NCBI RefSeq assembly: GCF_026711005.1
Contig: NZ_JAPPVJ010000002.1
Span: 496,001 to 560,000, forward strand
From: Sphingobacterium sp. UT-1RO-CII-1
GTDB lineage: Bacteria; Bacteroidota; Bacteroidia; Sphingobacteriales; Sphingobacteriaceae
Length of the DNA: 64,000 nt
Direction of reading: 5' to 3'
The translations under genes were made by a program, and so were the position numbers. Under the pieces are notes generated by a model. It made no database searches, was not told the DNA's origin, and saw only the letters and a list, made by a program, of their open reading frames with translations. Shown in pieces: positions 14,206 through 48,293 of the stretch (positions are counted from its first letter, which is position 1; each line of letters starts with the position of its first letter).

Positions 14206-14213
14206 TATATTTG
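14206..14213 (+). promoter_or_regulatory. -7-like TATATTTG immediately before the TPR/HTH gene
   Basis: TATATTTG matches TAnnTTTG exactly but ends only 3 nt before the ATG at 14217. If it is real, transcription would begin at or within the start codon and the mRNA would be leaderless; otherwise it is a chance match. Confidence 0.3.
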
Positions 14214-14216
14214 ACC

Positions 14217-23535: not shown

Positions 23536-26500
23536 TTAAAATCTTACACTAGCACCGAACAGGAAGGTCCGTGTTATCGGGTAGCTGTAATTGCCTGCTT
23601 CGGGGTCTAAATACTTAGGAAACTTGCTTTTCGAAAATAAATCATTCACTGCTGTGTGCACACGAATATTATTTATACCCACTTTTTCAAACACACTGTT
23701 CTTAAATGTATAGCCTAGCGTAAGGTTCTTAATACGGAAATACGAACCGTCAATCAACCAGTGATCCGACAAAGCGTAATTACTGCTGGTTGATACCCGA
23801 GACAGCCTAGGATAAAATGCTCCTAAATTCTGCTCTTCGGTATTAGCCGCACTCCAAAATCCGCCTACCAGCTCTTCCGGAAAACTACCAAAGCCTTCTG
23901 CAAATGGTTCTATTGCCTCACTATTCAAACGGCTCAAACGTTTTGCTACGCCCTGAAATACCAGGCCGAAATCAAAGTTTTTATAATCCAAGCGTATATT
24001 ACCTCCATATTGAAAGCGTGGTAAAGCACCGCCCAGCAACTCTTTATCGTCCGGCGTTATCACGCCGTTACCATCCACATCTACATACCTAAAATCACCA
24101 ACTTTCGTATTGGGATTCATCACAGGACCTTTTGCCAACTCCTCTTCATTTTGAAAAATGCCATCAAACTTATAGCCATACCACTCATTATACTCGCTGC
24201 CCTGCCGGATTATCTGATCGCCTAAAAACTCTGTTCCTTTTAAACTCCTGATCTTAGATTTAGCATCTGATATATTAAAAGCTGCACTATACTTTAATTC
24301 GCCTACCCGATCAGACCAACCTAACTCAAGCTCCCAGCCTTTTACACCTAACTCTCCGGCATTCTGATTTGGTTTATCATATCCTAAATACAAAGGAATA
24401 TCCAGTGGCAATAAAATATCATAGGTTTTCTTATCATAATAATCAGCGGATACCGATAGCCTATTATCCAAAAAAGACATATCCACACCAACATCTAGGG
24501 TTTCGCTGGTTTCCCAAGATATGTTTTGCACCGCATACACCTGTTGTCCTCCGCCTGGCAGCGGTACAATTTTTCCATTCTGATAAAACAATGCATTTGT
24601 AAAATCTATCTGCGCCTGATACGGATAATAACTAGAGTTTCCATTTCTGTCTAAAAGGCGCTCATTTCCTGATTTACCCCAAGAAGCACGCAGTTTCAAG
24701 AAATTAACATAAGGATTATCCTTCAAGAAGTTCTCCTCTGTCAGCACCCATCCTCCTGAAACCGAAGGATACACCGCTTGCCTATGTCCATTGGCAAATC
24801 TCGACGAACGGTCTGCACGAATATTTCCCTGTATATAATAGCGGCTTTTATAATTATACTGTAATCGGCCAAAGAAAGAATGCAGATTGGACTCATTCGC
24901 AGAGCCTGAATTATCTCTCAGATCGATAGCGCCGGCATTCAGGTAAGGAAAGCCAACTAAAGCAAAACCGTTTCTAGAAGCCGCCAAGCCTTCATAATGT
25001 CTATAATTCTCTTCAAAACCAGCCAGTACATCAAAATTATGATCTTCCCGAAGCGTATAATTGTAATTGGCCAACAACTGTGTATTGATGGAGTAGTTTT
25101 CTATACGCGATTCATTTAGTGAAGTTCTTGACCTATTTTGCGCTATAACACGTGCCGGGTCATTTAAATCGGTGTATTCAATTTTCTTAGTATAATTCTT
25201 CACCTTATCAAAATCAAGAATCGGAGCTACTTGCGCTGTTAGTGTCAAGCCTGCAACGGGCTTATAACTGAAGGCGATGCGTGCCGATAATTGATTAAGC
25301 TGCGTGCGTTTATTCCCTCCATCATATATTTCAGCTACAGGGTTGTCACCGTCTTTTCCCGGTGCGTAGCGTCCATCTTGGTAATAATCATCGTAGTAAG
25401 CAGGGAGTGTTCGTCCTCTATAGATCACATTATAAGGCACTTCGTCTGTATTCGTTCTCTTATAGCCTAAATCAAGTTTTAAATCAAATTTATCCGATAT
25501 TTTCAAGTCATTATTCACCCGAGCCAGCAGGCGTTCGTAATCGTAATTATCATAAAATGCTCCTTGTTTGGTATAGCCTAAAGAGGCCTTTGTTTTCAGA
25601 CGGTCATTTCCACTGGTAAACACAAGTTCATGTCTATTTCGCAATGGATTATCGTTGGTCATCACCGCTTTTTGCCAATCGGTATTCGGGTACTTATCTG
25701 GATCATTGGCATGATTCGACAAATAATTATCTATATGATCTTGCGCATACAATGGAGAGCCTCCGTCGTTCACGAGTTGCTCGTTAAAATAACGCATAAA
25801 ATCTTGTATGCCTACATATTTAGGCAAAGCTGTAACCTCTTGCACCCCCAATTCGTATGCGTAGTCAAAACTCTGCTGTCCAGCTTTTGCCCTTTTTGTT
25901 GTTATCAAAATCACGCCTGCCGCACCTCTCGACCCATAAATAGCTGCTGAGGCTGCATCTTTTAATACGGTCAAACTTTCTACGTCCATCGGGTTTACGT
26001 GATCTATATTATTCACCGGTGATCCGTCCACAATAATCAGTGGGCTATTGGTACCTATGGTTGTAATACCGCGTATTAAAATACTCGAACTTCCTCCGGG
26101 CGCTCCACTACTGCGTGTTACACTAACACCGCCCATACTTCCTTGCAGCGATTCGGAAATCTGCACCGTTCGCCTGCCCTCTACATCTTCCGAACCGATA
26201 GTCTTAATAGCACCTGTTAAATCTTTTTTCCGCTGCGTCCCGTACCCTACCACTACCACTTCATCCAGTCCCTGGTTAATCGGTTCTAAAGAAATCAGTA
26301 GTTCCTTATCAGAAACTTGTTGTTCATAATTACTATAACCTAAGTAACTAAAAGTTAACATTTCATTTAGGCTATTTACCTGTATAGTAAAAGCCCCATT
26401 TTGGTCAGTACTGGTCTGCAAAGCACTTGATTTTGCAGTAATACTTACCCCTACTAATGGCTGTTTGTTTTGTGCATCCAGTACCTTTCCTTTCACTTGC

Positions 26501-26574
26501 CGGCTTTGCGCCATCAACATACTACTATTAAAAAGTAGCAGAACCAACAAAAATAAAGTTGTTTTAATATTCAT
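23536..26574 (-). CDS. SusC/RagA-family TonB-dependent transporter (PUL1)
   Basis: I place the start at ATG 26574 (MNIKTTLFLLVLLLFNSSML, a normal signal peptide); an ATG 35 codons upstream gives no sensible export signal. The 1012-residue protein has a carboxypeptidase-D-like domain (VKGKVLDAQNKQPLVGVSI), a TonB box/plug region (VVVVGYGTQRKKDLTGAI; VDGSPVNNIDHVNPMDVESL) and a 22-strand barrel ending in SVRF. It imports oligosaccharides across the outer membrane with TonB energy and forms a lidded complex with the adjacent SusD. It has no STN domain, so regulation is not by FecR-type signalling. Confidence 0.95.
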   Translation of the reverse strand: MNIKTTLFLLVLLLFNSSMLMAQSRQVKGKVLDAQNKQPLVGVSITAKSSALQTSTDQNGAFTIQVNSLNEMLTFSYLGYSNYEQQVSDKELLISLEPINQGLDEVVVVGYGTQRKKDLTGAIKTIGSEDVEGRRTVQISESLQGSMGGVSVTRSSGAPGGSSSILIRGITTIGTNSPLIIVDGSPVNNIDHVNPMDVESLTVLKDAASAAIYGSRGAAGVILITTKRAKAGQQSFDYAYELGVQEVTALPKYVGIQDFMRYFNEQLVNDGGSPLYAQDHIDNYLSNHANDPDKYPNTDWQKAVMTNDNPLRNRHELVFTSGNDRLKTKASLGYTKQGAFYDNYDYERLLARVNNDLKISDKFDLKLDLGYKRTNTDEVPYNVIYRGRTLPAYYDDYYQDGRYAPGKDGDNPVAEIYDGGNKRTQLNQLSARIAFSYKPVAGLTLTAQVAPILDFDKVKNYTKKIEYTDLNDPARVIAQNRSRTSLNESRIENYSINTQLLANYNYTLREDHNFDVLAGFEENYRHYEGLAASRNGFALVGFPYLNAGAIDLRDNSGSANESNLHSFFGRLQYNYKSRYYIQGNIRADRSSRFANGHRQAVYPSVSGGWVLTEENFLKDNPYVNFLKLRASWGKSGNERLLDRNGNSSYYPYQAQIDFTNALFYQNGKIVPLPGGGQQVYAVQNISWETSETLDVGVDMSFLDNRLSVSADYYDKKTYDILLPLDIPLYLGYDKPNQNAGELGVKGWELELGWSDRVGELKYSAAFNISDAKSKIRSLKGTEFLGDQIIRQGSEYNEWYGYKFDGIFQNEEELAKGPVMNPNTKVGDFRYVDVDGNGVITPDDKELLGGALPRFQYGGNIRLDYKNFDFGLVFQGVAKRLSRLNSEAIEPFAEGFGSFPEELVGGFWSAANTEEQNLGAFYPRLSRVSTSSNYALSDHWLIDGSYFRIKNLTLGYTFKNSVFEKVGINNIRVHTAVNDLFSKSKFPKYLDPEAGNYSYPITRTFLFGASVRF

Positions 26575-26633: not shown

Positions 26634-26918
26634 ACCGTACTGTAGTAGGATAAAGAAGAAAAACATAGCCAAAATACACCCAATATTATGCACAAGATAA
26701 ATGACAGTCAATCAAAAAGTTAGGTATTTCAAAAATGCATTTTGAACAGGTATTTATATACTATAATTTACTCTACTAGTAAACACACAGTCAAACAAAT
26801 AGTACTTTACTAATCATCGCTTTTCTAACGTCGGTATAAAACTGAATAAAGAATAGAATCAATTATCCATACTACTGATTCACTTCACAACATACCTTTA
26901 CTTTTTACTACTATAAAA

Positions 26919-26963
26919 TGACTACACATTAATCTATTTAAACGATAGTCTAATGTGTAGTCA
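26919..26963 (-). terminator. Long inverted repeat downstream of PUL2
   Basis: TGACTACACATTA (26919-26931) and TAATGTGTAGTCA (26951-26963) are a perfect 13-bp inverted repeat with a 19-nt loop. Read on the minus strand it lies 44 nt after the DUF4998 stop and is followed by ATTTTATAG. It is probably a terminator, though the loop is long and a protein-binding site is possible. Confidence 0.55.
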
Positions 26964-27006: not shown

Positions 27007-27729
27007 CTACTTTAACTCTATAAAACTTTTATCTGTATAAAAAGTATCAATCGACTTACTTTCTGGCAGATACAGCGTTCTATAAGAGATAGGAGCTGCT
27101 GTTTTTACATTTTTCAAAACAACCTTATTATTAGCACTTTCAATTTCTTCCGTTTTAAAGAGAGAGGTCACCTGTACGTTCTCTTTATCCGTATAATTCA
27201 GTTCAACGGCTACCTCAGTCTTAGCAAAAGCAGCATAAAACTGAATTAAAAGGTCTGAATTATGATGGTCAAATGTAGATTCTTTAATTAACCTGTTTAA
27301 CAAAGTTTCTGTAAAATCTTCTCCATAGATATTTACAGGTATTTCATATGCAATTGATCTCGATTTACCTCCGTCAGTCGAATAAAACTCCAAGGTGTAA
27401 CTTCCTTGTTCTATTGGTTTTTCTTTGCTTCCAATATAAAATTCCACCGAATCTTTAACAGCGTGTTTGGGAACATCTACAATGATAGAATCTTTTTTAC
27501 TATTCCAATAGACAATTAATTGTTTAACCCTAGGATCACTCATCCAATAATTAATCAACATTCTGTTTTTACCTGGAAATGCATGCGCAGAATCAACCCG
27601 GCCAACATAAATTATTTCCCCGTCTTTCATATACACCTCATGTACATCATTCATTTTAGAACAACTCAACAAAAAGGATAAACTCACTATAGCCACAAAG
27701 AATAACGCACTTATTTTTATATATTTCAT
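27007..27729 (-). CDS. DUF4998 lipoprotein (PUL2)
   Basis: The start used is the second methionine (27729, MKYIKISALFF); an ATG two codons earlier is equivalent. The 240-residue lipoprotein has lipobox FLLSC at about residues 19-23, then the DUF4998 opening KMNDVHEVYMKDGEIIYVGRVDS followed by AFPGKNRMLINYWMSDPRVKQLIVYWN, a fibronectin-III-like fold that recurs in PUL accessory proteins. It is the last gene of a SusC-SusD-DUF5000-DUF4998 operon and begins 27 nt after the DUF5000 stop. It is probably surface exposed and glycan-binding, by association only. Confidence 0.88.
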   Translation of the reverse strand: MKYIKISALFFVAIVSLSFLLSCSKMNDVHEVYMKDGEIIYVGRVDSAHAFPGKNRMLINYWMSDPRVKQLIVYWNSKKDSIIVDVPKHAVKDSVEFYIGSKEKPIEQGSYTLEFYSTDGGKSRSIAYEIPVNIYGEDFTETLLNRLIKESTFDHHNSDLLIQFYAAFAKTEVAVELNYTDKENVQVTSLFKTEEIESANNKVVLKNVKTAAPISYRTLYLPESKSIDTFYTDKSFIELK

Positions 27730-27756
27730 TGTCATTTACATTTCTTAAATTGATTG

Positions 27757-28974
27757 TTATTGATTTTCATTTAAGGGCTTACCCCAAAATGATAGTTCAG
27801 CCAAAAACACATTTGGCGAATTTGTCCAAGTTTTTACCTTTTTAAATCTTATGTAACGAACTGGTGGGGCTTCTTCAGAAAACTCAAATTCTTCCCCCAG
27901 TGCTGCTAATGCTTTATCTTCAGTGGATAACTTGTCTGCAGCTAATGGATCTGGACCTGAAGGTTTTTCAGATACCCCTGTAGTTAATAAAGTCCACCCA
28001 TTCCAACTACATGGATCTGAGTTGGCTACAATTGGATCATTAGTCCCCCATATTTCAAATTCTTTAGGATGGTGCAAATTAAAGTACCAACCACTTCTTC
28101 CCCAAAATTTAAACCTAGAGAGCTGTGCTTTAACTCCTAAATCAATTGTAAAAAAGGAATTTAGCCCATTTTGACTATCATTTAAATAATATGCTGTTCC
28201 TTCGTTAGTTATCCCATTCCACAATACATTCATGCTTTTTGCTCCCCAAATATTCATTTCTATGCCTGGGCACAAACGCATTTCTTTCCATAAAGCTTTA
28301 TCTAATATCTGTTCTTCGAATGGTACTTCTGTTACATATAATGTATCTGTTCTATTTCCATACGTATCACGAACATATACTCCGAAACTGCTTTCTACAG
28401 CTTCTTGGTTTCTAACAAAACCAATCCCCTTGGTTATAGAGGTATATAATTTTTCAATAGACGACCAATTATTTTCGTTATCTTTTTTCAATACATCTAT
28501 TAGCACTTCTTCACTTTCAGTATTTTCCCAGCTTACTTTAATTCCCCCAAATGCAGGTTCTACACTAAAACTATTATAAATATCAAAAATTGGTGAATCT
28601 TTAGGTTCTATTTCAACAAAAATTGGTTCTGACTCATTTTGACTACGGTCTACACATCTCAACTCAACAATCGATTTTCCTGATCTAGAGAAGCCCTTAA
28701 TCGTGATTGAACTAGAGAATGCTGATGTTTTTTGAATTTTAACCTCTCCTGAAGGTAATGTATATGTCGCTTTTACATATAATAAATCTGCATCGCCTGG
28801 CAGGGTATAATGAATAGTAGCTCCTCCTTTTAAATTCTCTACAAAAGGGTCTATCAATTCTTGTGGTGCGGTACTCTCTATAGGAAATTGGCCAATTCTT
28901 TCCTCGTTACATGAATACATAAAAACATCGAGCAGAAGAATCAAAATTATATAAAATCTATTTTTTTTCATCAT
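27757..28974 (-). CDS. DUF4959/DUF5126/DUF5000 domain lipoprotein (PUL2)
   Basis: The 405-residue product begins with a lipoprotein signal (lipobox MYSC near residue 22). Three successive beta domains follow: an N-terminal FN3-like DUF4959 part (APQELIDPFVENLKGGATIHYTLP), a middle DUF5126-like part (VEPAFGGIKVSWENTESEEVLIDV), and a C-terminal DUF5000 domain related to F5/8-type discoidin modules (FFTIDLGVKAQLSRFKFWGR, PKEFEIWGTNDP, VRYIRFKKVKTW). Such proteins accompany SusCD pairs in many Bacteroidota and are thought to be surface glycan-binding proteins. It lies 39 nt after SusD and 27 nt before the DUF4998 gene. Confidence 0.88.
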   Translation of the reverse strand: MMKKNRFYIILILLLDVFMYSCNEERIGQFPIESTAPQELIDPFVENLKGGATIHYTLPGDADLLYVKATYTLPSGEVKIQKTSAFSSSITIKGFSRSGKSIVELRCVDRSQNESEPIFVEIEPKDSPIFDIYNSFSVEPAFGGIKVSWENTESEEVLIDVLKKDNENNWSSIEKLYTSITKGIGFVRNQEAVESSFGVYVRDTYGNRTDTLYVTEVPFEEQILDKALWKEMRLCPGIEMNIWGAKSMNVLWNGITNEGTAYYLNDSQNGLNSFFTIDLGVKAQLSRFKFWGRSGWYFNLHHPKEFEIWGTNDPIVANSDPCSWNGWTLLTTGVSEKPSGPDPLAADKLSTEDKALAALGEEFEFSEEAPPVRYIRFKKVKTWTNSPNVFLAELSFWGKPLNENQ

Positions 28975-29013: not shown

Positions 29014-30939
29014 TTACCAATTTGGCGTTTGTACTAAATTGGCGTTCACCCTTAAATTGTATTCTTTAACAGGGAATAAATAGTCTCTATTTTTAAACTG
29101 TGGAACAAATAATGTTTTAACAGTGTTAAACTCATCTACTGTTTCTCCATCAGCATTTAATCCTCGTATTGGCTGATTATACCATTTAGCCGCTGTTTTC
29201 CATCTTTTTAAATCCCAGAACCTTTTTCCTTCAAAAGCTAGCTCGATCATTCGTTCTTGCTGTATAATCTGGCGGAAACCTTCTTTGGTTTTAGGTTTAG
29301 TAGGATATTTAGAGTACGCTGCCCAGCTTTCAATAACACCTAGCAACCCTGCTCTTTCTCTCACTATATTTATAGCATCATAAACTCTTTCATCTGGTGT
29401 CACTAATGCTTCATTTAAAGCTTCTGCATATAACAAATACAAATCAGCTAATCTCACAATTGGAAATGTCGAGCGTACTGTCACTTTAGAGGTAGCCGAA
29501 GTTGCGACATTTTCAAAGTGAGAGCTTTTTCGAATCCAATACCCAGAAAGTGAGTATCGTAAGGCTCCATTTTTTCCTTGCACTTCTCCTTTTTTTGTTT
29601 TAAAGACCCATGGTTGCTCCGACAAATTTCCTTTTCCGACATCTTTGACCCTTCCATTGCCAAACCATACACTACCATCAAAAGCTAAATTTGCATAAAA
29701 CCTTGTTTCTCTGCTAATATTGATTTTAGCAGTTATATAGTTAGGTTCCACAAAAAATTTATGATCAGCTGGCGCTTCTACTGTCTGAAATCTATTTACA
29801 TAATCGAAACTTATATCCTCATCCACTGGCACACCATTATTTGTATAAAACAATTCTGCCATTCTTAAGTCAGGGACCATATACGGATCTGACGGCGTCC
29901 ACATATTATAATCTCTAAGAAAATAGGGCGCAGTTGCATACATATAATTATTCAAGGTCAATTTAGCTGCCGTCCAAATTATTTCTTTATTCCACTTATC
30001 TGCAAATACATGGCGAAGTGTCATTAATAAACGAGTTGAGTCCGACAATGCCGTTGGGTATTCTTCAAATTGATATAACCTATGTCCCGCCAACAAAGCT
30101 GTATCTATAGCATTTTTAGCTGCTAACGCAGCCTTTTCCCATTTTTTTTCGTCGTAAGCTTTACTAAATAAAGCAACACCTCTCTTGTCAACATAACTAG
30201 CGAAATCTGGATTACCATTAAACAAAGGGCTAGCCGCTGTCGCCAACACCTCTGCTTTTAGTGCTAATGCAATAGGTTGCGTAATTCTCCCCAGTTCTGA
30301 TGCCCTATTCGCAATTTCGATAGGCAAATCTGGCACAGCTTCGTCTAAGAGGTCGACAATATAATTTATCACATCATCAAAAGGCTCTCTATAAACCCTT
30401 ACCTCATCTATACCCGCATCAACATCTAAGCTTGTCCTTTGGATGGGTATACTTCCGTACATTCGTACAAGATAAAAATGATAGTAAGCTTTCAAGAACT
30501 TCACTTCGGAGATCCATCTCAATTTTTCTTGTTCGGATAAATCAGCTTCTAAATTGACAATATTTTCCAGGAAAATATTACAATCTCTTATAGCTTTAAA
30601 TAGTGGCTTACCTCCATATTCTCCGTCCCAATAATTAAAAATCGGACTGTTAACATTTAACTCTCCCTTTCTCATCCTCATTCCCCTATAATTGGTAGCT
30701 CCATAAAAAGGATCTTCTATACCCCAAAACTCATCGCTCCCTTGAATCGCAGGATCATCTGATATTACACCTAGGTTTGGCAAATATTGATAACATGTAG
30801 CTAAAAATTTTTCTGCACTTGTACGATCTAGAAATGCATATTCCAATGTTGCCACATTATCCGGCACGATATCCAAGTATTTATTACATGAATATGTTAT
30901 TGGCACTAACACCAATAAATAGTATAATATTTTTTTCAT
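29014..30939 (-). CDS. SusD/RagB-family outer-membrane lipoprotein (PUL2)
   Basis: The 641-residue protein is longer than average for SusD. It has a lipoprotein signal with TYSC near residues 15-18, the opening KYLDIVPDNVATLEYAFLDRTSAEKFLATC, the SusD helical core (EVKFLKAYYHFYLVRMYGSIPI) and the RagB domain (LADLYLLYAEALNEA, QERMIELAFEGKRFWDLKRWK, ending YLFPVKEYNLRVNANLVQTPNW). It is predicted to form the lid of the adjacent SusC at the cell surface, 18 nt upstream on the same strand. Confidence 0.94.
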   Translation of the reverse strand: MKKILYYLLVLVPITYSCNKYLDIVPDNVATLEYAFLDRTSAEKFLATCYQYLPNLGVISDDPAIQGSDEFWGIEDPFYGATNYRGMRMRKGELNVNSPIFNYWDGEYGGKPLFKAIRDCNIFLENIVNLEADLSEQEKLRWISEVKFLKAYYHFYLVRMYGSIPIQRTSLDVDAGIDEVRVYREPFDDVINYIVDLLDEAVPDLPIEIANRASELGRITQPIALALKAEVLATAASPLFNGNPDFASYVDKRGVALFSKAYDEKKWEKAALAAKNAIDTALLAGHRLYQFEEYPTALSDSTRLLMTLRHVFADKWNKEIIWTAAKLTLNNYMYATAPYFLRDYNMWTPSDPYMVPDLRMAELFYTNNGVPVDEDISFDYVNRFQTVEAPADHKFFVEPNYITAKINISRETRFYANLAFDGSVWFGNGRVKDVGKGNLSEQPWVFKTKKGEVQGKNGALRYSLSGYWIRKSSHFENVATSATSKVTVRSTFPIVRLADLYLLYAEALNEALVTPDERVYDAINIVRERAGLLGVIESWAAYSKYPTKPKTKEGFRQIIQQERMIELAFEGKRFWDLKRWKTAAKWYNQPIRGLNADGETVDEFNTVKTLFVPQFKNRDYLFPVKEYNLRVNANLVQTPNW

Positions 30940-30957: not shown

Positions 30958-33900
30958 TTAAAAGTTCATTTGCAAACCAAGGTTGTACACCTTTTGAACA
31001 GGGTAACCTAAACCATTACCAGCCATCTCTGGATCCCACAACTTAAATTTGCTAAAAGTCAATAAGTTAGTTCCCGACACATATACTCTAAAAGTAGTAG
31101 CACCTAAACGAGAAATTATATGTTTTGGTAAGGAGTATCCAAATTCGAGAGACTTTAATCGCAAGAATGTACCATCACGCATAAACCATGTACTCTGTTG
31201 TGTATTATTAGGGATTGATCGATCTGCGAGCCTAGGCCACAGTGCATAAATATTCCTATTATCCTCAGACCAATGATCATTTGCATATACTTCTAACAAT
31301 GCGTTTTTCGATATTATGCTTGCGTTATCATCTGTATCAATAAAAGGTGCGGTCTTCACAGGATCTATCCAAAAAGACTCCCTTGCCAATCCTTGAAAAA
31401 ACATAGACAAATCAAAACTCTTATAACCAGTTGAGAATCCAAATCCATATATAATTTCAGGCGTCGTTGGATAACCAATTGGGACCATATCCAGGCCGGT
31501 TATCTGACCATCTCCATTAATATCTCTATATTTAATATCTCCTCCCATAACCTCTCCAAAAGCCTGCGTTGGTGAATTAACAACTTCAATATCATCAACA
31601 AACAAGCGTTCTGCAATATAGCCCCATGTTTGAGATACGGGTTTACCGATTTTTGACAGCCATGGAGTTAAAGAATTATCTACCTCTTCATAAACTTGAA
31701 ACTTTGCAGTTGAATATGTAAAATTAGCTCGACCAGTAATCCAAAAATCTTCTGTTGCAACATGGTTATAATCAATTGAAAAATCTACACCTTTTCCCTT
31801 TGCCTCTCCTATATTTGTTAGCGGAGTTGCCTGCAGTCCCATGCTTGAAGGAATGCTTGCGCGTGCCATTAAAATATTTTTCTTATGCTCCGTATAATAG
31901 TCTGCTTGGATCTGCATCTTATTAAACAAGCCAAGCTCAAAACCTAAATTCATCTTAGAAGAAGTCTCCCAAGTAATCTTATCATTAGCGTAGCGGCTAA
32001 TCGTCACTCCATTTACAGTTTGATCAAAATTCTCTCCCCATACAAAAGATTTCCCAGGATCGTTTACATTAACTTGTGATAAATAATAAAATCTGTCGTT
32101 CGCATCACCAATAGCATCATTTCCGACTAAACCATATGTACCTTTCAATTTTAGTTTTGACACAATATTATTTAAACGGTCATTCCAAAACTTTTCATTT
32201 GATACTATCCAACCAAAGCCCATAGATGGAAAGAACCCAAAACGTTCTTTCATTGCAAACCTTTCAGAACCATTATATCCGAAATTAAACTCAGCAAAAT
32301 ATCGACTATCGTAGCCATATGTTGCACGTCCTGACAATCCTAAATTTCTAGAAGGCAAAGAGAGTAATAAAGTAGAAGCATTAGGTTTTAAACTCTCTCT
32401 ACGCACACCAACAAGCAATCCGTTTACTTCATGTTTATTAAAAGTTCTTGAATAATTTATAGCACTCTCTAAATAGGTAGATGTATTAATTTCTTTAGGT
32501 CCTTCTTCATAATTGAGATATTGAGTTCCTGTTTCGGTATTCAACTGCTGTAACATATATTCTCCGGTATGTTTATCATATGCTACAAGTGAATATAAGT
32601 ATGGATTGTAAGCGCGTTTAACATCGAAGTATGATGACCTTGTGGTACTTAATAATCCTCTTATCGACAGACCTTTGGTTATGAAATCTAACTTTTGCTT
32701 AATCTCAAATTGCGCAAGCATCATAGATTTTGCATAATCCTTATACCCTTTTACCATATCTGCATATGGATTTATATACTGCCCTTTGTCGTAATTACCA
32801 AAAAGTGTGTGTGTCACATAAGAATATGTACGATCTGATTTAAAAAATGGTGGAAATAACACTGGATCGGACCTCATTACCTTATTATATAAATCTTGTC
32901 CCCCATCAATAGGTCCTTTGTAGTCATCAAAAGTTCCACTTAGACGTACAACCGCCTCTGTTGTTGGTGTTAAATTAATATTGACATTCGCTCTAAGTAG
33001 ATATTTCTTGAGGTCAATATTATTATTGAAGTTATTATTTCTATCAACCTTTAAAACACCGTTGTCTTTACTATAACTTCCTGCAACGTAATATCGAGCA
33101 GCTTTACCACCTCCACTTACATTAAGATTAGCCCTTTGCGTTGTAGTATAATTTTTAAAAAGCATTTTATACCAATCGTTAGCTGGATAAATCTGTGGAT
33201 CAGCTCCTGCAATTGTATTATCAATTTTATCGTAGTCATATATGATAGATTTTAAAGGATCTCGAGTTGTAACTGCTTCATTATTTAACTGCATATATGT
33301 CACTGGATCAGCCAAATCAATATTTCTAGTTGGTGTCGAATATGAGTTTTCTAATCTGAAAGATAATTTTGCTTTTCCTTCTTGCCCCTCTTTTGTTGTA
33401 ACCATAATCACTCCGTTTGCTCCTCTCGCACCATATAATGATGTAGCAGCTGCATCTTTCATTATAGAAAAAGTTGCTAAATCATCAGTTTGCAAACGAG
33501 CTAGATCTGCTGATGTCATTTCTACTCCGTCAATCAGGATTAATGGACCTCTAGCATACGAGAATGTGGTTACCCCTCTGACGAAGAAACTAGCATCATC
33601 CTGTCCAGGTTCACCACTTCGTTGATAGGCTATAAGGCCAGAAACACGTCCAGCCAAAGCTGTTGTGAGATTGCTACTCGGCACACGTAGCTCTCCTGGC
33701 TTAACTGTAGATATTGCAGATACAACACTTTCTTTTTTTTGTGTTCCAAATGCTACTACAGTTACTTCCTCGACACTAGCTTCTGTCTGAACCAGCGTAA
33801 CATTTATAGTACGTTGAGTATTTATGGGTATATTTTGCGAAATATAACCAACCGAAGTAAATAACAATGTATCTTTAGAACTTGATACATTTATTGTATA

Positions 33901-34116
33901 ACTTCCGTCCCGCCCTGTCGCTATACTTGTACTCGTACCTCTCACAGACACCGTAACATCCGCTAAGAAATTTCCATTTTCATCTTTAACAATACCAGTT
34001 ACTTTTTCAGACTGATAATAATCAAAATCAGTTTTTTTAGTCTTCGTATCGGCATTAACATTCGTATAAAAAAAAGTGAATACAGATACAATACTTAAAA
34101 TCTTAAGTTTATTCAT
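30958..34116 (-). CDS. SusC/RagA-family TonB-dependent transporter (PUL2)
   Basis: The 1052-residue protein starts with a signal peptide (MNKLKILSIVSVFTFFYTNV, cleavage near VNAD). A carboxypeptidase-D-like domain (VTGIVKDENGNFLADVTVSV), a plug with VTVVAFGTQKKESVVSAIS and LILIDGVEMTSADLARLQTDDL, and a beta-barrel ending in NLGLQMNF follow. VVAFGTQ replaces the commoner VVGYGTQ around the TonB-box region, and there is no STN domain. It is the first gene of the PUL2 operon and is divergent from a putative membrane-bound regulator at 34607. Confidence 0.94.
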   Translation of the reverse strand: MNKLKILSIVSVFTFFYTNVNADTKTKKTDFDYYQSEKVTGIVKDENGNFLADVTVSVRGTSTSIATGRDGSYTINVSSSKDTLLFTSVGYISQNIPINTQRTINVTLVQTEASVEEVTVVAFGTQKKESVVSAISTVKPGELRVPSSNLTTALAGRVSGLIAYQRSGEPGQDDASFFVRGVTTFSYARGPLILIDGVEMTSADLARLQTDDLATFSIMKDAAATSLYGARGANGVIMVTTKEGQEGKAKLSFRLENSYSTPTRNIDLADPVTYMQLNNEAVTTRDPLKSIIYDYDKIDNTIAGADPQIYPANDWYKMLFKNYTTTQRANLNVSGGGKAARYYVAGSYSKDNGVLKVDRNNNFNNNIDLKKYLLRANVNINLTPTTEAVVRLSGTFDDYKGPIDGGQDLYNKVMRSDPVLFPPFFKSDRTYSYVTHTLFGNYDKGQYINPYADMVKGYKDYAKSMMLAQFEIKQKLDFITKGLSIRGLLSTTRSSYFDVKRAYNPYLYSLVAYDKHTGEYMLQQLNTETGTQYLNYEEGPKEINTSTYLESAINYSRTFNKHEVNGLLVGVRRESLKPNASTLLLSLPSRNLGLSGRATYGYDSRYFAEFNFGYNGSERFAMKERFGFFPSMGFGWIVSNEKFWNDRLNNIVSKLKLKGTYGLVGNDAIGDANDRFYYLSQVNVNDPGKSFVWGENFDQTVNGVTISRYANDKITWETSSKMNLGFELGLFNKMQIQADYYTEHKKNILMARASIPSSMGLQATPLTNIGEAKGKGVDFSIDYNHVATEDFWITGRANFTYSTAKFQVYEEVDNSLTPWLSKIGKPVSQTWGYIAERLFVDDIEVVNSPTQAFGEVMGGDIKYRDINGDGQITGLDMVPIGYPTTPEIIYGFGFSTGYKSFDLSMFFQGLARESFWIDPVKTAPFIDTDDNASIISKNALLEVYANDHWSEDNRNIYALWPRLADRSIPNNTQQSTWFMRDGTFLRLKSLEFGYSLPKHIISRLGATTFRVYVSGTNLLTFSKFKLWDPEMAGNGLGYPVQKVYNLGLQMNF

Positions 34117-34606
34117 ATTTAAATAATAGTTTTATAATGGTTGTTGGTTAATCACGAAAATATAGGTCCGCAAAGCTTTTGCGCTTTACCAACAAATTCG
34201 TCATAACATTAATCAATTAGTTAGAAAGCATCCAATTACGGATATCTTTATGTCTTTTTTCATTTGTACCAATAGCAATGGCCTTTTTGAGGCTTTTCTT
34301 AAGAAATACGTTATTTAAGAATATACCTTTCTATGCTATCTCACAATAATTAAAGACAGTCAATACGCTAATAAATCTTAGATCTACCGCAATTTATTTA
34401 GCACTTTTTTCTCATTTTTTTTAGAGCGTCATTAAACTTCATTTTTATTCATACATTTGGGCTTAGATGGTTATCAGTTATACCTTTGTTACAAAAACAT
34501 AACAAACATATATGTCACTTCTTTAGAAAAAGAAAAATGAAGTATCCAAAGTTTGTACAAAAACAATGAACAAATTAAGACTCAGGTAAACAATAACTTA
34601 GAGAAC
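34117..34606. other. Divergent control region between PUL2 SusC and its putative regulator
   Basis: This 490-bp region has no gene that I can support. It contains a clear Bacteroidota promoter for the rightward gene (34456-34488). On the SusC side it has a hairpin-prone leader: CGCAAA (34169-34174) and TTTGCG (34178-34183) nested inside GTTGGT and ACCAAC arms (about 34144 and 34197). No -7 consensus was found for SusC itself. Confidence 0.55.
34456..34488 (+). promoter_or_regulatory. Promoter of the PUL2-linked membrane protein gene
   Basis: TTTG (34456-34459), a 21-bp spacer and TACCTTTG (34481-34488) match the Bacteroidota -33/-7 consensus exactly, with spacing in the accepted range. The gene start at 34607 is about 118 nt downstream, leaving a long leader. 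Confidence 0.7.
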
Positions 34607-35905
34607 ATGGAAAAGAATTATGGACACGTAAATCGAGATGAAAGTTTCAATATATTAGAAATATGCTGTCTAAAAATAGCTACAAAGCTTAATCGTGGAA
34701 ATTATACCGACTGGAAAAATAGTGATTACATATACTTAAGTGCAGAACTAAGAAAGAAAACCAAAGTTTATATCAGTGAAAACACACTAAAAAGGATCTT
34801 TGGAAAATTAGCCACATCAGAAGAGTATACACCCCAAAAAGCGACGCGGGATGCGCTCGCACTTTACATCGGCTACCGCGACTGGGAAGAATTTGTCAAA
34901 GTAGAAAACACGAATAGAAAGGCCTATCAACAACTCCCCGAGCAAGCAACCGTAAACAGCACGACCAATGCGACTCTGGAAAATCCGTCAAAGAGCCCTA
35001 AGTATATCTATGGTTTTATAGCCGCTTTTGTGCTATTGGTTTCATTTTTTGTATTCACCTACATAAGTTCGCAAGAGGGTAGCTCCATAGATGTAAAATT
35101 AGTGAATCTTCACCCTACTGGCTACTCACCACATTCGGCCATATTTAAACTTCAGAATAATACAGGTGACCAGTTGGAGTTAAGCAATTTTAGTATGGAC
35201 TTTGACAATTGGCGCAGTAGATACCGTAAATGGAACGACAGCGTTATTACATTCTATTATGAGAAGCCCGGTGTATATTATCCCAAATTATATTATAAAG
35301 ACAAAATAATAGATACACAACGTGTGGTTTTAAACTCTGCAGGATGGGAAGTTACCTGTAAAATGAATCATGATACTACCCGTATGTACCCTATTACTCA
35401 AGGAGGAATCGATCTTTTCACCCCGCCAAGCATCTCTTTAAAAGATGTTCACCGTGCGGGTGTCGATACTATGCGTACATTTTTCACTCATTTCTCAAAC
35501 GTTCAGCCTTTTAATCAATCTGCTGATCAGCTTTCCATAGAAGCATTTATCAAGACTTCGCCCATACGGCCGGGCGTGCGTTGCTCGCAAGTCGATTTAC
35601 TACTGTACGGCGAGGAAAGCACACATTATTTTGTATTGATTAAACCGGAATGTATTTCCTGGGCAGATTATAAATTTTCAGAAAACTATAAAGGTGGCCG
35701 AAACCAGAATTTAGAAAACTTTGGTCACGACCTAAGGGATGGAAAGAAAGTACGCCTAAGCATTATAAATAAAAAGGTCATCATATACCTGGACGATAAG
35801 CCAATATTCAGTACTACCTATGAAAAACCTATAGGCCAGTTGCTCGGTATAGAGTTTATGTTTTCCGGCGTCGGCGAAATTAAGGATGTAAAACTATCGA
35901 GCTAA
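34607..35905 (+). CDS. Single-pass membrane protein with cytoplasmic DNA-binding-like domain and periplasmic beta domains; candidate PUL2 regulator
   Basis: I use the ATG at 34607 (MEKNYGHVNRDESF); a TTG 18 codons upstream is open but weaker. Of 432 residues, 1-100 form a compact helical domain (YISENTLKRIFGK, TPQKATRDALALYIGYRDWEEF) with the look of a winged or lambda-like DNA-binding domain. A transmembrane helix spans about 133-152. Residues 160-245 resemble a PKD-like beta domain (GYSPHSAIFKLQNN, EKPGVYYPKLYYKDK), and 290-432 resemble a concanavalin-like domain with ligand-binding potential. No kinase or classical HTH is seen. Its divergent position next to SusC2 suggests that it senses the PUL2 glycan and controls the operon; this is inference. 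Confidence 0.65.
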   Translation: MEKNYGHVNRDESFNILEICCLKIATKLNRGNYTDWKNSDYIYLSAELRKKTKVYISENTLKRIFGKLATSEEYTPQKATRDALALYIGYRDWEEFVKVENTNRKAYQQLPEQATVNSTTNATLENPSKSPKYIYGFIAAFVLLVSFFVFTYISSQEGSSIDVKLVNLHPTGYSPHSAIFKLQNNTGDQLELSNFSMDFDNWRSRYRKWNDSVITFYYEKPGVYYPKLYYKDKIIDTQRVVLNSAGWEVTCKMNHDTTRMYPITQGGIDLFTPPSISLKDVHRAGVDTMRTFFTHFSNVQPFNQSADQLSIEAFIKTSPIRPGVRCSQVDLLLYGEESTHYFVLIKPECISWADYKFSENYKGGRNQNLENFGHDLRDGKKVRLSIINKKVIIYLDDKPIFSTTYEKPIGQLLGIEFMFSGVGEIKDVKLSS

Positions 35906-42846: not shown

Positions 42847-45800
42847 TTAAAATTTAAGGTTTACACCAAACGAAAAGGTCCTCGCCAAAGGATAATACCC
42901 GCCCTCTGGGTCAAAACCTTCGTAATTTGTTAGCGTTGCGAGGTTCTGTGCCGATAAGAACAAGCGTAAACCGCTAAGTTTATACTTTTCTACCAGCTCC
43001 TGCGGAAACGTATAGCCTACCTGCACGTTCTGTATTTTAAAGTAATTAGCGCTGCGCAACCAATAGCTCGAATACTGCGTATCGTTTGACGTATTCTGCA
43101 AGCTCAACCGTGGGTACGTTGCGTTCGGGTTTTCGGGTGTCCAGTTATCGATATGCATCGGGCGTGCATTCTGTGTAAGGAAAAATGCCCAGCCTTCATA
43201 GCCCGATATATACCTTGCATTTTGCAGTAAGCCATAAAAATTGGCCGATGCATCCAAGTTTTTCCAGCCTAAATTGATGTTCATGCCCACGCGTATACTT
43301 GGCTTATCGCGCAGTATTACCCGGTCTGCTCCGTTGATGACACCATCTTCGTTCTGATCCTTATAGCGTATATTTCCAGGTACAATATTCGCGCCCTGCG
43401 ATGCTGCATTTTTAATTTCCTCTTCCGTCTGAAACAGCCCCATCGCCTCATAACCGTAAGCCAAATTATACCGGCCCCCTTCAGCTGTATACGTATTATC
43501 CTGAATCCAAGGGCCTGTTCCTGCTAGGTCTTCCACCTTATTTCTTGCAAAGGAAGTATTCATATCCACACCCCAGCGCCAGTCGCCTTTTCTATCTGCA
43601 TACGACACCATAGCCTCCAGCCCGTAACTCTTCATCCGCAATAAATTATTATACGGCCCACCTAAGCCAAACTCTGCCGGCACAGGCGGTGCATACAAAA
43701 TCTGGCTACGTTTATTGATAAAATAATCCACCGTCAGGTTCAGTTTATTAAGCAGCCCCATATCCAAACCAAAGTTCGACTGCTCCGACCGCTCCCAACT
43801 GATCCGTGGATTTATAGCGACATTATTCCATGCACCCGGCACCACTGCCCCGTTAAAACCATACATCGCCGAATTATAGGATAACACCGCAGCCGTCGCA
43901 TAATAGCCCACCTTTTCAGCATCGCCCAATATCCCCCACGACCCTCTCAGTTTCAAACTCGACAACCAGTCGGTGGAAAAGAAATCCTCCTGGTGTATAT
44001 TCCAGCCTGCTGAAAACGAGGGGAACACGCCCCAACGGTGTCCGGGCGCAAAACGCGAAGACCCATCAGCCCGCACATTGGCCTGAAATAAATATTTCCC
44101 TTCATAGTCGTAGTTAAAGCGCGAAAACAACGATTGTATAGCCACCTCACTGCCTTTACCAGAAGCCTGCATATTTGTTTGGCCACCACTATTCAACACA
44201 TGTATATCATCGAAAGGCAAGTTATCCCGAAAGGCCGAAAAATCCGTCGTCTTAAAGTATTCCTGCGAAAAACCACCTAGCAACTTAAAATTATGCAAGC
44301 CAAAGCTTTTCGCATAATCTGCCGTTAGCTGAAACATATTCCTATAGCTGTTATCTACGCCCTCTGTCAAGGAAGTCACCCTATTCTCCACCGACGCCAC
44401 ATTCCCCTGCTCATCATACAATTGGTAGGTGCTCACCCTATTTTTCGACCAATTATCGTACGTATACCTCGAGAAATTACCTTTAATCTCCATTCCCTCG
44501 ATCGGCCTATAGCTCAATTCGAATATCGCCATCAGCTCTTTATACTTCTGCTTATTAAAGCCCGACTCGTACACGCCGGCTATGGGGTTGCCTGCAATGG
44601 ACGACCCCATGCCGTACTGCCCAAGCGTATTTCGTATAAAACTCGTAGGCGCTACCCGTGTTGCTTGCGTCTGCCATATTTCCGTTCCGCCCTGCGGTGC
44701 ATTGATATAGGTTTCGGTATATTGGATATTGGCGCGTGCATCAAAATTATCTGCTATTTTGAAAAGCATATCGGGTTTAAAAATCACCCGGTTATAATTA
44801 TTGTTTGGGAGTGTTCCTCCCTGATAATCGTGCGAAGCTGAAAACCTATACCTTACTTTTTCCGAATTGCCGGAAAGCGCCAGGTAATTATTATTGATCA
44901 ATGTATTCTTCTTGTAAATCTCCTCATACCATTTGACATCGGCATACTTCCCGTCTTTCAAAGCCTGTAAGCCCGCTTCGCCATACAGCGCCTCTTTCCC
45001 ATCGTTCAGTAGCGCTCTATCCCACAGCTTCATAAAATCCTCCGCGCCCACAAAGTCGATCATAAACTGCGGCGACTGCACCCCCACCGAGCTATTCACC
45101 TCGACGGTTAATTTATCGATAACCTGTCCGCTTTTGGTTGTCACCAAAATCACTCCATTTGCCGCTCTTGACCCATATATGGAAGCTGAAGCTGCATCTT
45201 TTAAAGTAGAAATACTCTCAATATCATTGGGGTTTAATGTATTTATATTACCGGGTACACCGTCAATCAGCACTAGCACACCCGAACTTCCTCCTATCGT
45301 AGAGGTACCGCGTATATTCAGTGAAGCGCCACTGCCCACTGCGCCACTGCCCTTGCTTACATTCAATCCTGCTACCGTACCTGCCAACAGTTCCTGCACG
45401 TTGGTCACGGCTCTTGACTTTAAAGACTTCTCTACATCTACTGTCCCGATAGCCCCTGTCACATTGCTGCGTTTTTGCGTTCCATAGCCCACCACAATCT
45501 CTGCAATATCAATCTTAGAAGCCGCCAAAGTAATCGTTATATCCTTCTGCCCGTTCCAAGTAAACAGCTGTGCTTCGTAGCCCAAAGAAGTAATGGACAA
45601 ATCGCTCTCCAAGGGCACATTCGTAAACGAAAAACGCCCATTTTCATCCGTCTGCGTCCGCACGTCAGTCGCTCGGGCATGCACGGTCACCCCTCTTACC
45701 GGCCTACCGTTTTCATCAATAATACGGCCAGACACAGCGTTCTGTACACCAACTTCGCTTTCTGCCGTTCTTATATTTCTGTTTGCTTCTGCTATAACAA

Positions 45801-46134
45801 TCGTATTATCTTTCACAGACCAGGTCAGGTTTTTATCTTTCAAAATCGCCTGCATAGCCTCTTCTAGGTTTGCGTTCTTCAATTTTACCGAAACGGGTAT
45901 ATTGGCCGTATTCGTCCCTGTAAAGAAAAACGAATAGCCCTCCTGCTTCTGTATAGATTTCATTACCGTCTTCAGGGGCTGCCTCGTGGCTACTACGCTA
46001 ATTTTCTGCGCCTTTGCTACAGCTATTGTTTGAAAAACAGAGGCAACCAGTAAAATAACTGTCAACTTCATGGACAATAGGATTCTTTTTGTAAAGAAGC
46101 GTTTATGCCACTCTACAAATGATTTATAAAACAT
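42847..46134 (-). CDS. STN-containing SusC/RagA TonB-dependent transducer (PUL3)
   Basis: The 1095-residue protein has a long signal region, with the hydrophobic core after RILLSMKLTVILLVASVFQT. A secretin/TonB N-terminal (STN) domain follows (ISVVATRQPLKTVMKSIQKQ, then NANLEEAMQAIL), about residues 45-115. After it come a carboxypeptidase-D-like domain (VSGRIIDENGRPVRGVTVHA), the plug (EIVVGYGTQKRSNVTGAIG, VLVLIDGVPGNINTLNPNDI) and the barrel. The STN domain contacts the periplasmic part of the FecR anti-sigma factor encoded upstream, so substrate binding is coupled to transcription as well as to import. Confidence 0.95.
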   Translation of the reverse strand: MFYKSFVEWHKRFFTKRILLSMKLTVILLVASVFQTIAVAKAQKISVVATRQPLKTVMKSIQKQEGYSFFFTGTNTANIPVSVKLKNANLEEAMQAILKDKNLTWSVKDNTIVIAEANRNIRTAESEVGVQNAVSGRIIDENGRPVRGVTVHARATDVRTQTDENGRFSFTNVPLESDLSITSLGYEAQLFTWNGQKDITITLAASKIDIAEIVVGYGTQKRSNVTGAIGTVDVEKSLKSRAVTNVQELLAGTVAGLNVSKGSGAVGSGASLNIRGTSTIGGSSGVLVLIDGVPGNINTLNPNDIESISTLKDAASASIYGSRAANGVILVTTKSGQVIDKLTVEVNSSVGVQSPQFMIDFVGAEDFMKLWDRALLNDGKEALYGEAGLQALKDGKYADVKWYEEIYKKNTLINNNYLALSGNSEKVRYRFSASHDYQGGTLPNNNYNRVIFKPDMLFKIADNFDARANIQYTETYINAPQGGTEIWQTQATRVAPTSFIRNTLGQYGMGSSIAGNPIAGVYESGFNKQKYKELMAIFELSYRPIEGMEIKGNFSRYTYDNWSKNRVSTYQLYDEQGNVASVENRVTSLTEGVDNSYRNMFQLTADYAKSFGLHNFKLLGGFSQEYFKTTDFSAFRDNLPFDDIHVLNSGGQTNMQASGKGSEVAIQSLFSRFNYDYEGKYLFQANVRADGSSRFAPGHRWGVFPSFSAGWNIHQEDFFSTDWLSSLKLRGSWGILGDAEKVGYYATAAVLSYNSAMYGFNGAVVPGAWNNVAINPRISWERSEQSNFGLDMGLLNKLNLTVDYFINKRSQILYAPPVPAEFGLGGPYNNLLRMKSYGLEAMVSYADRKGDWRWGVDMNTSFARNKVEDLAGTGPWIQDNTYTAEGGRYNLAYGYEAMGLFQTEEEIKNAASQGANIVPGNIRYKDQNEDGVINGADRVILRDKPSIRVGMNINLGWKNLDASANFYGLLQNARYISGYEGWAFFLTQNARPMHIDNWTPENPNATYPRLSLQNTSNDTQYSSYWLRSANYFKIQNVQVGYTFPQELVEKYKLSGLRLFLSAQNLATLTNYEGFDPEGGYYPLARTFSFGVNLKF

Positions 46135-46210
46135 ATCTTTGTAATGTTTGATGGTTATGATTTAGTTTAATTAGCTAGCGTTATCAACGCCTTTCATGCC
46201 TTCATCCATC

Positions 46211-46239
46211 ATTGAGCGGTGTTCGTAGCACTGCTCAAT
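46211..46239. other. Hairpin in the FecR-SusC spacer of PUL3
   Basis: ATTGAGCGGTG (46211-46221) and CACTGCTCAAT (46229-46239) pair over 11 bp with one G-T, around a 7-nt loop. It lies in the 188-bp spacer between fecR and susC on the transcribed minus strand. With no T run, it is more likely an mRNA-processing or attenuation hairpin than a simple terminator. Confidence 0.5.
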
Positions 46240-46322
46240 AACTCTTTGATAAATAGCATAACTTTTAGGTTTACGTTTTTACTTTTTTCCTATCCTCCTT
46301 TCATCTTTAGGTTTTTATCGTT

Positions 46323-47561
46323 CTATTTATCAACTACAATCAGTTCTTTTTGCTCGCCATTGGTCTTCATTTTAAAGCGCAAGCCGGCCGCCTGCAGAAT
46401 ATCCAGCACCACACTTAAGTTTTTATTCCGCTCGATGATCCCATAAAAAGGCACGTTCAGATGCTTCCCTTCGTAGCTTACCGTGATATCATACCAACGT
46501 GCGAGCTGCTCGAAAGCCTCGCCCGCTTCTAGGCCGTCAAACTGGAAGAAGCCATTTTTCCAGGCTATGGCTTGCTCCACGTCCACCTCCTTCACCCTAA
46601 AGCCCTTCTCATTATACAGGCTTTGCTTGCCTGCCGTCAGGTGCACGGCGTCTTTATCTTTGGCCGATACTGCCACCCGTCCCTCTACGAGGGTCGTCTT
46701 AATTCCTGCTGCTTCCGGATAGGCCGAAATATTAAACTTCGTCCCCAAAACTTCCAGTAGCTGCGCACCACTGCGCACCAGGAACGGTACAGACTGTCCA
46801 CCCTGTTTCCGCGCTGCTACCTCAAAATAGCCTTCGCCTAGAAGCTCTAGCTCTCGGCTGCCTGCTGCAAACTCTGCCGGAAACATCAGCTTAGAGCCCG
46901 CATTCACCCACACCCGTGTGCCATCTGCTAAAAGTATCTCGTAATAACTTTTTGCCGGCACTTCCAAGGTCAGGCTTGCATTGGGCAGTTTTTTAAAAGC
47001 CGACCATTCTGCGGTCGTCAACAGCTGCTCGCCGTTTTCATAGCGAATACCATCTGCAATCTGCAGCGCTTTGCTCCCTTCTTTGAGCGGAATCACCCGC
47101 CCGTCTGTCATTTTTAAAATACCACTATTTACGCCCGGCGCAACCTGCGCTATTTCGGGATACCGTGCCACATCGTATATTTCTACAGCAGCCGAGCGCT
47201 GGCTTAAATAATTAACCCCCACAAACAGCAATACCGCCGCTACTGCCGCCGCATAATACCAGATACGTGCCCCTCCTGACCTTTTCTTTTGCGCTGCAAA
47301 CGAACCGCCGTTTTCCACAATACGTTCCTTCACGGCAGCCGTCAACCTGCTAACATTATCTGCCGTGTCTGTTTTGTAATTGGCCTCATGAAAAATCGTC
47401 ACATCGACCTTCCAATCTTGCTTATGCAACACATCCTCAAAAAAGACTCGGTTCTTAGGGTCTGCATCCAGCCATGAAGAAAGCTCCTGTTCTTTTTCCA
47501 AAGACAGTTTACCTTCCGCATATTCTTTTATTAAACTTGCAATATTCTGTAGATCATACAT
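46323..47561 (-). CDS. FecR-family anti-sigma factor (PUL3)
   Basis: The 412-residue protein has a cytoplasmic anti-sigma part (1-95: IKEYAEGKLSLEKEQELSSWLD), a transmembrane helix at about 100-119, a periplasmic FecR domain (LEVPAKSYYEILLADGTRVWVNAGSKLMFP, LEVLGTKFNISAYPE) and the Bacteroidota C-terminal DUF4974 domain (FFQFDGLEAGEAFEQLARWYDITVSYEG). It holds the ECF sigma factor inactive until the STN domain of SusC signals that the glycan is present. It lies 162 nt after the sigma gene and 188 nt before SusC. Confidence 0.93.
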   Translation of the reverse strand: MYDLQNIASLIKEYAEGKLSLEKEQELSSWLDADPKNRVFFEDVLHKQDWKVDVTIFHEANYKTDTADNVSRLTAAVKERIVENGGSFAAQKKRSGGARIWYYAAAVAAVLLFVGVNYLSQRSAAVEIYDVARYPEIAQVAPGVNSGILKMTDGRVIPLKEGSKALQIADGIRYENGEQLLTTAEWSAFKKLPNASLTLEVPAKSYYEILLADGTRVWVNAGSKLMFPAEFAAGSRELELLGEGYFEVAARKQGGQSVPFLVRSGAQLLEVLGTKFNISAYPEAAGIKTTLVEGRVAVSAKDKDAVHLTAGKQSLYNEKGFRVKEVDVEQAIAWKNGFFQFDGLEAGEAFEQLARWYDITVSYEGKHLNVPFYGIIERNKNLSVVLDILQAAGLRFKMKTNGEQKELIVVDK

Positions 47562-47723
47562 AACGTCGGTCTTTATCTAGTTATACATTTTTTCCATTCA
47601 TACCTTAGTAAAAAAGACACATTAATTTAACAAACAAATTAACGCACTCATTATCAACCCAGAAAACAGCATCATCAAGCAGTTTTATAGGTTGATCCAT
47701 TTGGAAAAATAAAAATAGAGGAA

Positions 47724-48293
47724 TTAAAACAACCAGGTAAACACCAGGTACAGGAAAAAGTCACGGCCTTTGAATGTCTTCCGTAGCGATTGTAATGCTT
47801 TTGATTTTGCGTAAAACACCGTGCTTGTTGTTGTGTTCAGGGCCTCGCAGATTTCCGCGGTGCTGCATCCTTCCAAGTAGCTCATCTTAAACACACGTTT
47901 CTGCTGTTCGGGCAGTTTGTCCAGCTCTTTGTAAAGCATCTCAATAAACTCCGCATAAATAATATTATACTGAATGTCCTGGTCGTCGGCATATTCGAAG
48001 CTCTCATAGCCGCTTTCAAAAACAGGTAAATTTTTATTTTTTTGCAGGTGGTTTAGGCAAGCGTTCTTCGTTACCCGAAATAAGAAGCTATACAAATGGG
48101 AGTCTGTTTCTATCTTACTGCGGTCTTGCCATAACTTAAAGAATGTGTCGCATACTATTTCTTCCGAGGCTTCCTGATTTTTGGTCAGCTTCAGGGCAAA
48201 GAACGATAACTTTTGAATATATTTTTGAATATAATGGTCGAGGGCAAACTCTTCTCCCCGCTTAAAGTCTTCAAAATAACTATCGATTTGCAT
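47724..48293 (-). CDS. ECF RNA polymerase sigma-70 factor (Bacteroides expansion type), PUL3
   Basis: The 189-residue sigma factor has region 2 (residues about 20-85, with KNQEASEEIVCDTFFKLWQDR and YSFLFRVTKNACLNHLQ) and region 4 (about 120-175, LPEQQKRVFKMSYLEGCSTAEICEALNTTTSTVFYAKSKALQSLRK). It has no extra domains. It is expected to direct transcription of the downstream susC operon after release from FecR. The C-terminus ends in a short aromatic tail. A minus-strand -7 box (TAACTTTG) precedes it at 48357-48350. Confidence 0.95.
   Translation of the reverse strand: MQIDSYFEDFKRGEEFALDHYIQKYIQKLSFFALKLTKNQEASEEIVCDTFFKLWQDRSKIETDSHLYSFLFRVTKNACLNHLQKNKNLPVFESGYESFEYADDQDIQYNIIYAEFIEMLYKELDKLPEQQKRVFKMSYLEGCSTAEICEALNTTTSTVFYAKSKALQSLRKTFKGRDFFLYLVFTWLF

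Follow-up and report, generated by a model that had tools for sequence, protein, structure and literature searches.

Reviews of PUL control describe HTCS, ECF/anti-sigma systems and carbon catabolite repression for CAZyme genes (PMC10766802), and according to Ravcheev et al. (2013) three PUL systems are specific to Bacteroidetes: SusR, HTCS and ECF/anti-sigma (PMC3878776). SusR, a membrane one-component regulator, has an HTH near its C-terminus; the operators predicted for it consist of direct repeats spaced 67 or 77 bp apart (PMC3878776). Transmembrane transcription regulators have been reported to be abundant in Bacteroidota, in a survey built on Pfam DNA-binding models (PMC10269533). The protein considered here, REG, carries a domain that would be invisible to such a survey because Pfam does not detect it, and no description of its architecture was found in the open-licence PMC literature.

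REG is encoded in a 64,000-nt stretch of Sphingobacterium sp. UT-1RO-CII-1 (the window, whose first letter is position 1). The first-pass annotation had placed it beside a PUL without a classical regulator, and this description holds: SusR, HTCS, AraC and ECF genes were looked for from 17 to 35 kb in the window and none was found. The nearest other regulator-like gene (14211-15938) encodes a TPR protein with a TM segment and, judged by eye, an apparent LuxR-like C-terminal HTH. A third SusCD system at 42847-48293 has an STN-bearing SusC, FecR, ECF sigma and a GH116 enzyme nearby, that is, conventional sigma control. The REG ORF is genuine and complete, with a start (ATG at 34607) that agrees with those of close homologues; a TTG at 34553 was rejected as an over-extension. 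The textbook Bacteroidota promoter and long leader reported earlier were also recovered, with a perfect -7 box at 34481, TTTG 21 nt 5' of this box and, from the promoter position, a leader of about 110 nt. The gene and its parts are listed below.

34607-35905, + strand: REG, 432-aa single-pass membrane protein, putative transmembrane regulator (ORF, homologues, AlphaFold2)
34456-34488, + strand: REG promoter of Bacteroidota type, TTTG, 21 nt, then TACCTTTG (sequence)
34637-34930, + strand: N-terminal cytoplasmic domain (aa 11-108), lambda-repressor/XRE-like five-helix fold (predicted structure)
35000-35074, + strand: single TM helix (aa 132-156) (sequence, AlphaFold2)
35093-35365, + strand: periplasmic beta domain 1 (aa 163-253), Ig/PKD-like by appearance (AlphaFold2)
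35420-35902, + strand: periplasmic C-terminal domain (about aa 272-432), galectin/ConA-like (AlphaFold2, fold search)

The AlphaFold2 model of REG, built with 44 homologues, has a mean pLDDT of 88.7, with low-confidence stretches at residues 1-6 and in the linker 110-130. Every part of the architecture first proposed is present in it: a helical DNA-binding-like domain of about 100 residues, one TM helix and two beta domains, one of them ConA-like. The N-domain, which reaches a pLDDT of 87.3 when modelled alone, has helices at 12-28, 38-52, 58-64, 78-87 and 93-108 and the recognition-helix motif S57-x-x-T60-L61-K-R63. Its predicted fold is DNA-binding-like and resembles lambda-repressor/XRE domains. 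The best Foldseek match is the phage TP901-1 CI repressor, with a probability of 0.91 but an E-value of 0.43; no match has an E-value below 0.4 and all Z values are under 8, which counts against the explanation favoured below. VIA matches (Z 4.8-6.9) are mostly lambda-repressor-like DNA-binding domains (C.Esp1396I, DdrO, SinR, EspR), with a phosphonate enzyme family and POU domains as exceptions; because the Z values are modest, this agreement of folds is supportive and no proof.

The 432-aa protein gave nothing above cut-off against Pfam and NCBIfam, where neither histidine kinase and receiver domains nor a FecR domain was found, and the query had no match above cut-off to Pfam HTH_3 or HTH_26, although one of the 44 homologues matches HTH_26 at 5e-4. 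Profiles of the N-domain and the C-domain gave nothing credible against PDB chains. A hydrophobic segment is also present at the TM position in aligned members, and a Lys N-terminal of the helix suggests, by the positive-inside rule, that the N-terminus is cytoplasmic; the beta domains would thus be periplasmic. For the C-terminal domain, the fold search gave galectins (Z up to 12.8, rmsd about 3), with CBM66 and BT3469 among the Foldseek matches. Homology of this domain to the secreted PF06439-like proteins encoded divergently from some REG genes was considered and rejected, as comparing the profiles yielded a probability of only 30.8%, over 57 columns, and the likeness is therefore one of fold only.

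More than 40 full-length relatives of REG were found in the same family, genus and class, and a scan of genome contigs with the REG query gave one partial match, in a MAG. Residues S57, L61, R63, P76, T80, L84, F180, L228, W247, C326, C349 and G414 are invariant across the 44 aligned sequences, and W36, W93 and F96 are conserved N-domain residues peculiar to the family. Other proteins across the class combine the N-domain with different partners: ~850-aa STAND/NACHT-like ATPases, ~190-aa soluble proteins and a TM-Kelch protein. The un-modelled domain caps the ATPases in many relatives (e.g. L057:6349-8904, L058:4181-6862, L061:6343-8907), and a giant ORF of ~1,900 aa is divergent from the ATPase gene at L057, L059, L061 and L063. 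PADLOC matched neither REG nor two STAND-like proteins. A protein with a Bacteroidia-type N-domain lies at L031:6684-8996, on a contig labelled as a Burkholderiaceae MAG, possibly through mis-binning.

The arrangement of genes is biased across the family. The upstream neighbour is divergent in 37 of 46 REG loci, whereas the background rate for genes of these loci is 40%, a comparison that carries no formal p-value because the loci are related. Frequently this divergent neighbour encodes a glycosidase, SusC or a secreted PF06439-like protein; the last is the commonest in the distant subfamily, and over the whole family linkage to such proteins is commoner than linkage to SusCD. Genes for GH2, GH92, GH115, alpha-L-fucosidase, rhamnogalacturonan-lyase-like proteins, a sulfatase and SusCD are among the remaining neighbours. 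Two close relatives each have an MscS-type mechanosensitive channel near REG (L032:10538-13018, L034:6019-8532), the two channels being 52% identical. An ECF gene was the immediate neighbour of REG in none of the loci examined.

In the window, SusC2/SusD2 lie divergent from REG on the opposite strand, and a second pair, SusC1/SusD1, comes after them in the same direction as SusC2/SusD2.

30958-34116, - strand: SusC2, nearest gene divergent from REG
29014-30939, - strand: SusD2
27757-28974, - strand: surface protein DUF4959-DUF5126-DUF5000
27007-27735, - strand: DUF4998 protein
26920-26962, - strand: perfect inverted repeat of 12 bp (GACTACACATTA/TAATGTGTAGTC) with a T-rich run after it; the SusC2 operon probably ends here (direct sequence reading)
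26728-26746, strand not assigned: TTCAAAATGCATTTTTGAA, inverted TTCAA pair 5' of SusC1, a REG site candidate chosen post hoc
23536-26574, - strand: SusC1, conserved REG partner (ATG at 26574)
21830-23515, - strand: SusD1, conserved REG partner
19218-21716, - strand: P832, 832-aa protein
17205-19046, - strand: CstA (carbon starvation transporter), closing the P832 module

The listed SusC1 start, a GTG at 26679, is over-extended and was replaced by the ATG at 26574. The inverted repeat at 26920-26962 suggests that the SusC2 operon ends before SusC1. Searches for P832 in the PDB, and for its L114 and L115 orthologues in Pfam, found nothing, and P832 is a candidate for a new carbohydrate-active or carbohydrate-binding family.

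Close relatives of REG (37-47% identity) lie beside orthologues of SusC1-SusD1-P832 (19218-26574). These orthologues are divergent from REG at L115 (59%, 65% and 36%) and L116, in tandem directly downstream of it at L033, and about 5 kb downstream at L032/L188; at L114, a 72% identical P832 is divergent from REG. P832 is near six of seven close REG genes and is present in 4/4 genus genomes with a close REG versus 14/94 overall; one close relative, G145, lacks it, which counts against the explanation favoured below. A co-occurrence of REG with SusC/SusD, proposed as a check at first pass, is thus present in the close subfamily, with a different partner from the one expected. The first-pass annotation had named the SusC2 system as the target, and this part was not supported: neither SusC2/SusD2 nor their accessory genes show conservation with REG, and the best relatives of SusC2/SusD2 (<=49%) are elsewhere. 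In the present genome the target of REG would therefore be SusC1 and not SusC2, with the counterpoint that SusC2 is the gene divergent from REG in the window.

The same SusC1 module also exists without a close REG, and ECF sigma genes then lie just upstream of SusC1 in nine of nine loci, beside a second gene that is of FecR type or similarly placed (in L175, L178 and L179 it was assigned by position alone, without a significant FecR match). At REG-linked SusC1 loci, ECF-sigma genes were found upstream of SusC1 in 0/5. The window CstA is 77-80% identical to the module-end CstA of seven ECF-controlled loci, which suggests that the window module and the ECF-controlled modules are the same locus, and the regulator label changes at least twice on the SusC1 tree, on supported branches. 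From this mutual exclusion and the tree, we infer a non-homologous replacement between the sigma switch and REG, in one direction or the other; paralogy or gene transfer could mimic it and count against the replacement. An STN domain was found in neither SusC1 nor SusC2. The domain was rejected as a marker of ECF control, because it is missing from REG-associated SusC1 proteins and also from some that are ECF-associated.

Candidate operators were sought in an unbiased scan of 24 distant-subfamily intergenic regions, with any 5-mer and any repeat period of 6-15. The best word was TTCAA with a period of 10, present in 12/24 regions versus 1/160 control intergenics (gaps separating mechanically called ORFs of at least 100 aa), always on the REG strand and mostly 35-70 nt 5' of the REG start. 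At loci outside the discovery set, TTCA-N6-TTCA is upstream in 8/12 versus 0/163 control pieces, most of the twelve being close relatives of discovery loci. Triple TTCAA sites are rare (2-9 per genome) and include one upstream of REG in five of five REG genomes, which were picked for having one. Tandem half-sites one helical turn apart fit a transmembrane one-component regulator. In the close subfamily, to which the query belongs, TTCAA direct repeats were not found, the density of TTCAA equals background, and a motif search of six intergenic regions gave no motif above expectation. For the REG of this window, the operator search gave no firm candidate; the pair in its own intergenic region has a 10-15% chance of arising at random.

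34438-34451, + strand: TTCATTTTTATTCA, weak half-site pair with 10-bp spacing in the REG/SusC2 intergenic region; may be chance

The explanation that we consider probable is that REG is a one-component transmembrane regulator that senses glycan and controls SusC1-SusD1-P832 in place of an ECF/FecR pair. Its periplasmic beta and galectin-like domains would bind a glycan fragment imported by the TonB-dependent system, and its lambda-repressor/XRE-like domain would contact DNA from the inner membrane face, controlling SusC1-SusD1-P832 and possibly also the SusC2 operon and REG itself. REG would thus hold, in this lineage, the place of the ECF sigma and FecR-type anti-sigma pair of related genomes; activation as the sign of regulation is a guess. 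The initial proposal of a one-component regulator of a PUL survives in this form, carried by the repressor-like N-domain, the lectin-like sensor fold, the divergent genes and the half-sites in part of the family, and without SusC2 as the target.

A regulator of the same kind could instead act on the divergent SusC2/SusD2 operon, the SusC1 linkage being left over from an ancestral locus. SusC2 is directly divergent from REG, likewise lacks an STN domain, and shares with REG an intergenic region that holds the weak TTCA-N6-TTCA pair. This target is nevertheless unlikely, as no SusD2 orthologue was found in 94 genus genomes (best 49%) and none is linked to a close REG, and the inverted TTCAA pair is upstream of SusC1 and not of SusC2. 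If REG were instead an anti-sigma-like protein that holds an ECF sigma factor encoded elsewhere, this would account for its position at the SusC1 module and for a FecR-like topology of a ~100-aa helical cytoplasmic domain, one TM helix and periplasmic beta domains; we regard it as highly improbable because none of the REG loci examined has an ECF gene directly next to REG, the N-domain is like repressor DNA-binding domains, and tandem half-sites occur in the intergenic regions of the distant subfamily. Least likely of all is a membrane-anchored glycan-binding protein with no regulatory role and a structural or partner-binding N-domain. In its favour, small soluble proteins and STAND/NACHT-like ATPases also carry this domain; the strong divergent bias, the operator-like repeats and the ECF/FecR exclusion at the same module speak against it.

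Whether REG represents a fourth class of PUL control in Bacteroidota is, in our estimate, evenly balanced. Such a class would comprise modular one-component membrane regulators whose un-modelled repressor-like DNA-binding domain is also used, across Bacteroidia, by Kelch-sensor proteins and STAND-like ATPases; its members would recognise TTCAA repeated in tandem at 10-bp steps and would swap with ECF/anti-sigma pairs at a given transport locus. PULs that seem to lack a regulator may have one whose DNA-binding domain has no family model, and an un-modelled regulator family would help in assigning regulators, operators and target glycans in such genomes. If the replacement is real, the REG locus is a natural case of one regulator taking the place of another at a single site.

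Among known systems, SusR of Bacteroides thetaiotaomicron resembles REG in combining a periplasmic sensor (putative in REG) with a cytoplasmic DNA-binding part (an HTH in SusR, predicted in REG) at a Sus-type locus. The HTH of SusR is C-terminal, whereas the DNA-binding-like domain of REG is N-terminal and its C-terminus is galectin-like, and the direct repeats of the predicted SusR operators are 67 or 77 bp apart in contrast to the 10 bp between distant-subfamily half-sites. Regulators of the ToxR/CadC type share with REG the one-component plan of a cytoplasmic DNA-binding domain (predicted in REG), a TM helix and a periplasmic sensor (putative in REG). Their DNA-binding domain is a winged HTH, whereas that of REG is modelled as lambda-repressor-like. 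The ECF sigma/FecR pair controls, by its position, the same SusC1-SusD1-P832 module in relatives, and FecR has a similar topology, but REG has neither the adjacent sigma gene of this two-gene sigma release nor detected similarity to FecR. With lambda-repressor/XRE (Cro/C1-type) domains the REG model has the five-helix fold and the position of the recognition helix in common, while the query falls below Pfam detection and has its own conserved W36, W93 and F96. REG probably works like SusR or CadC, yet belongs to neither family.
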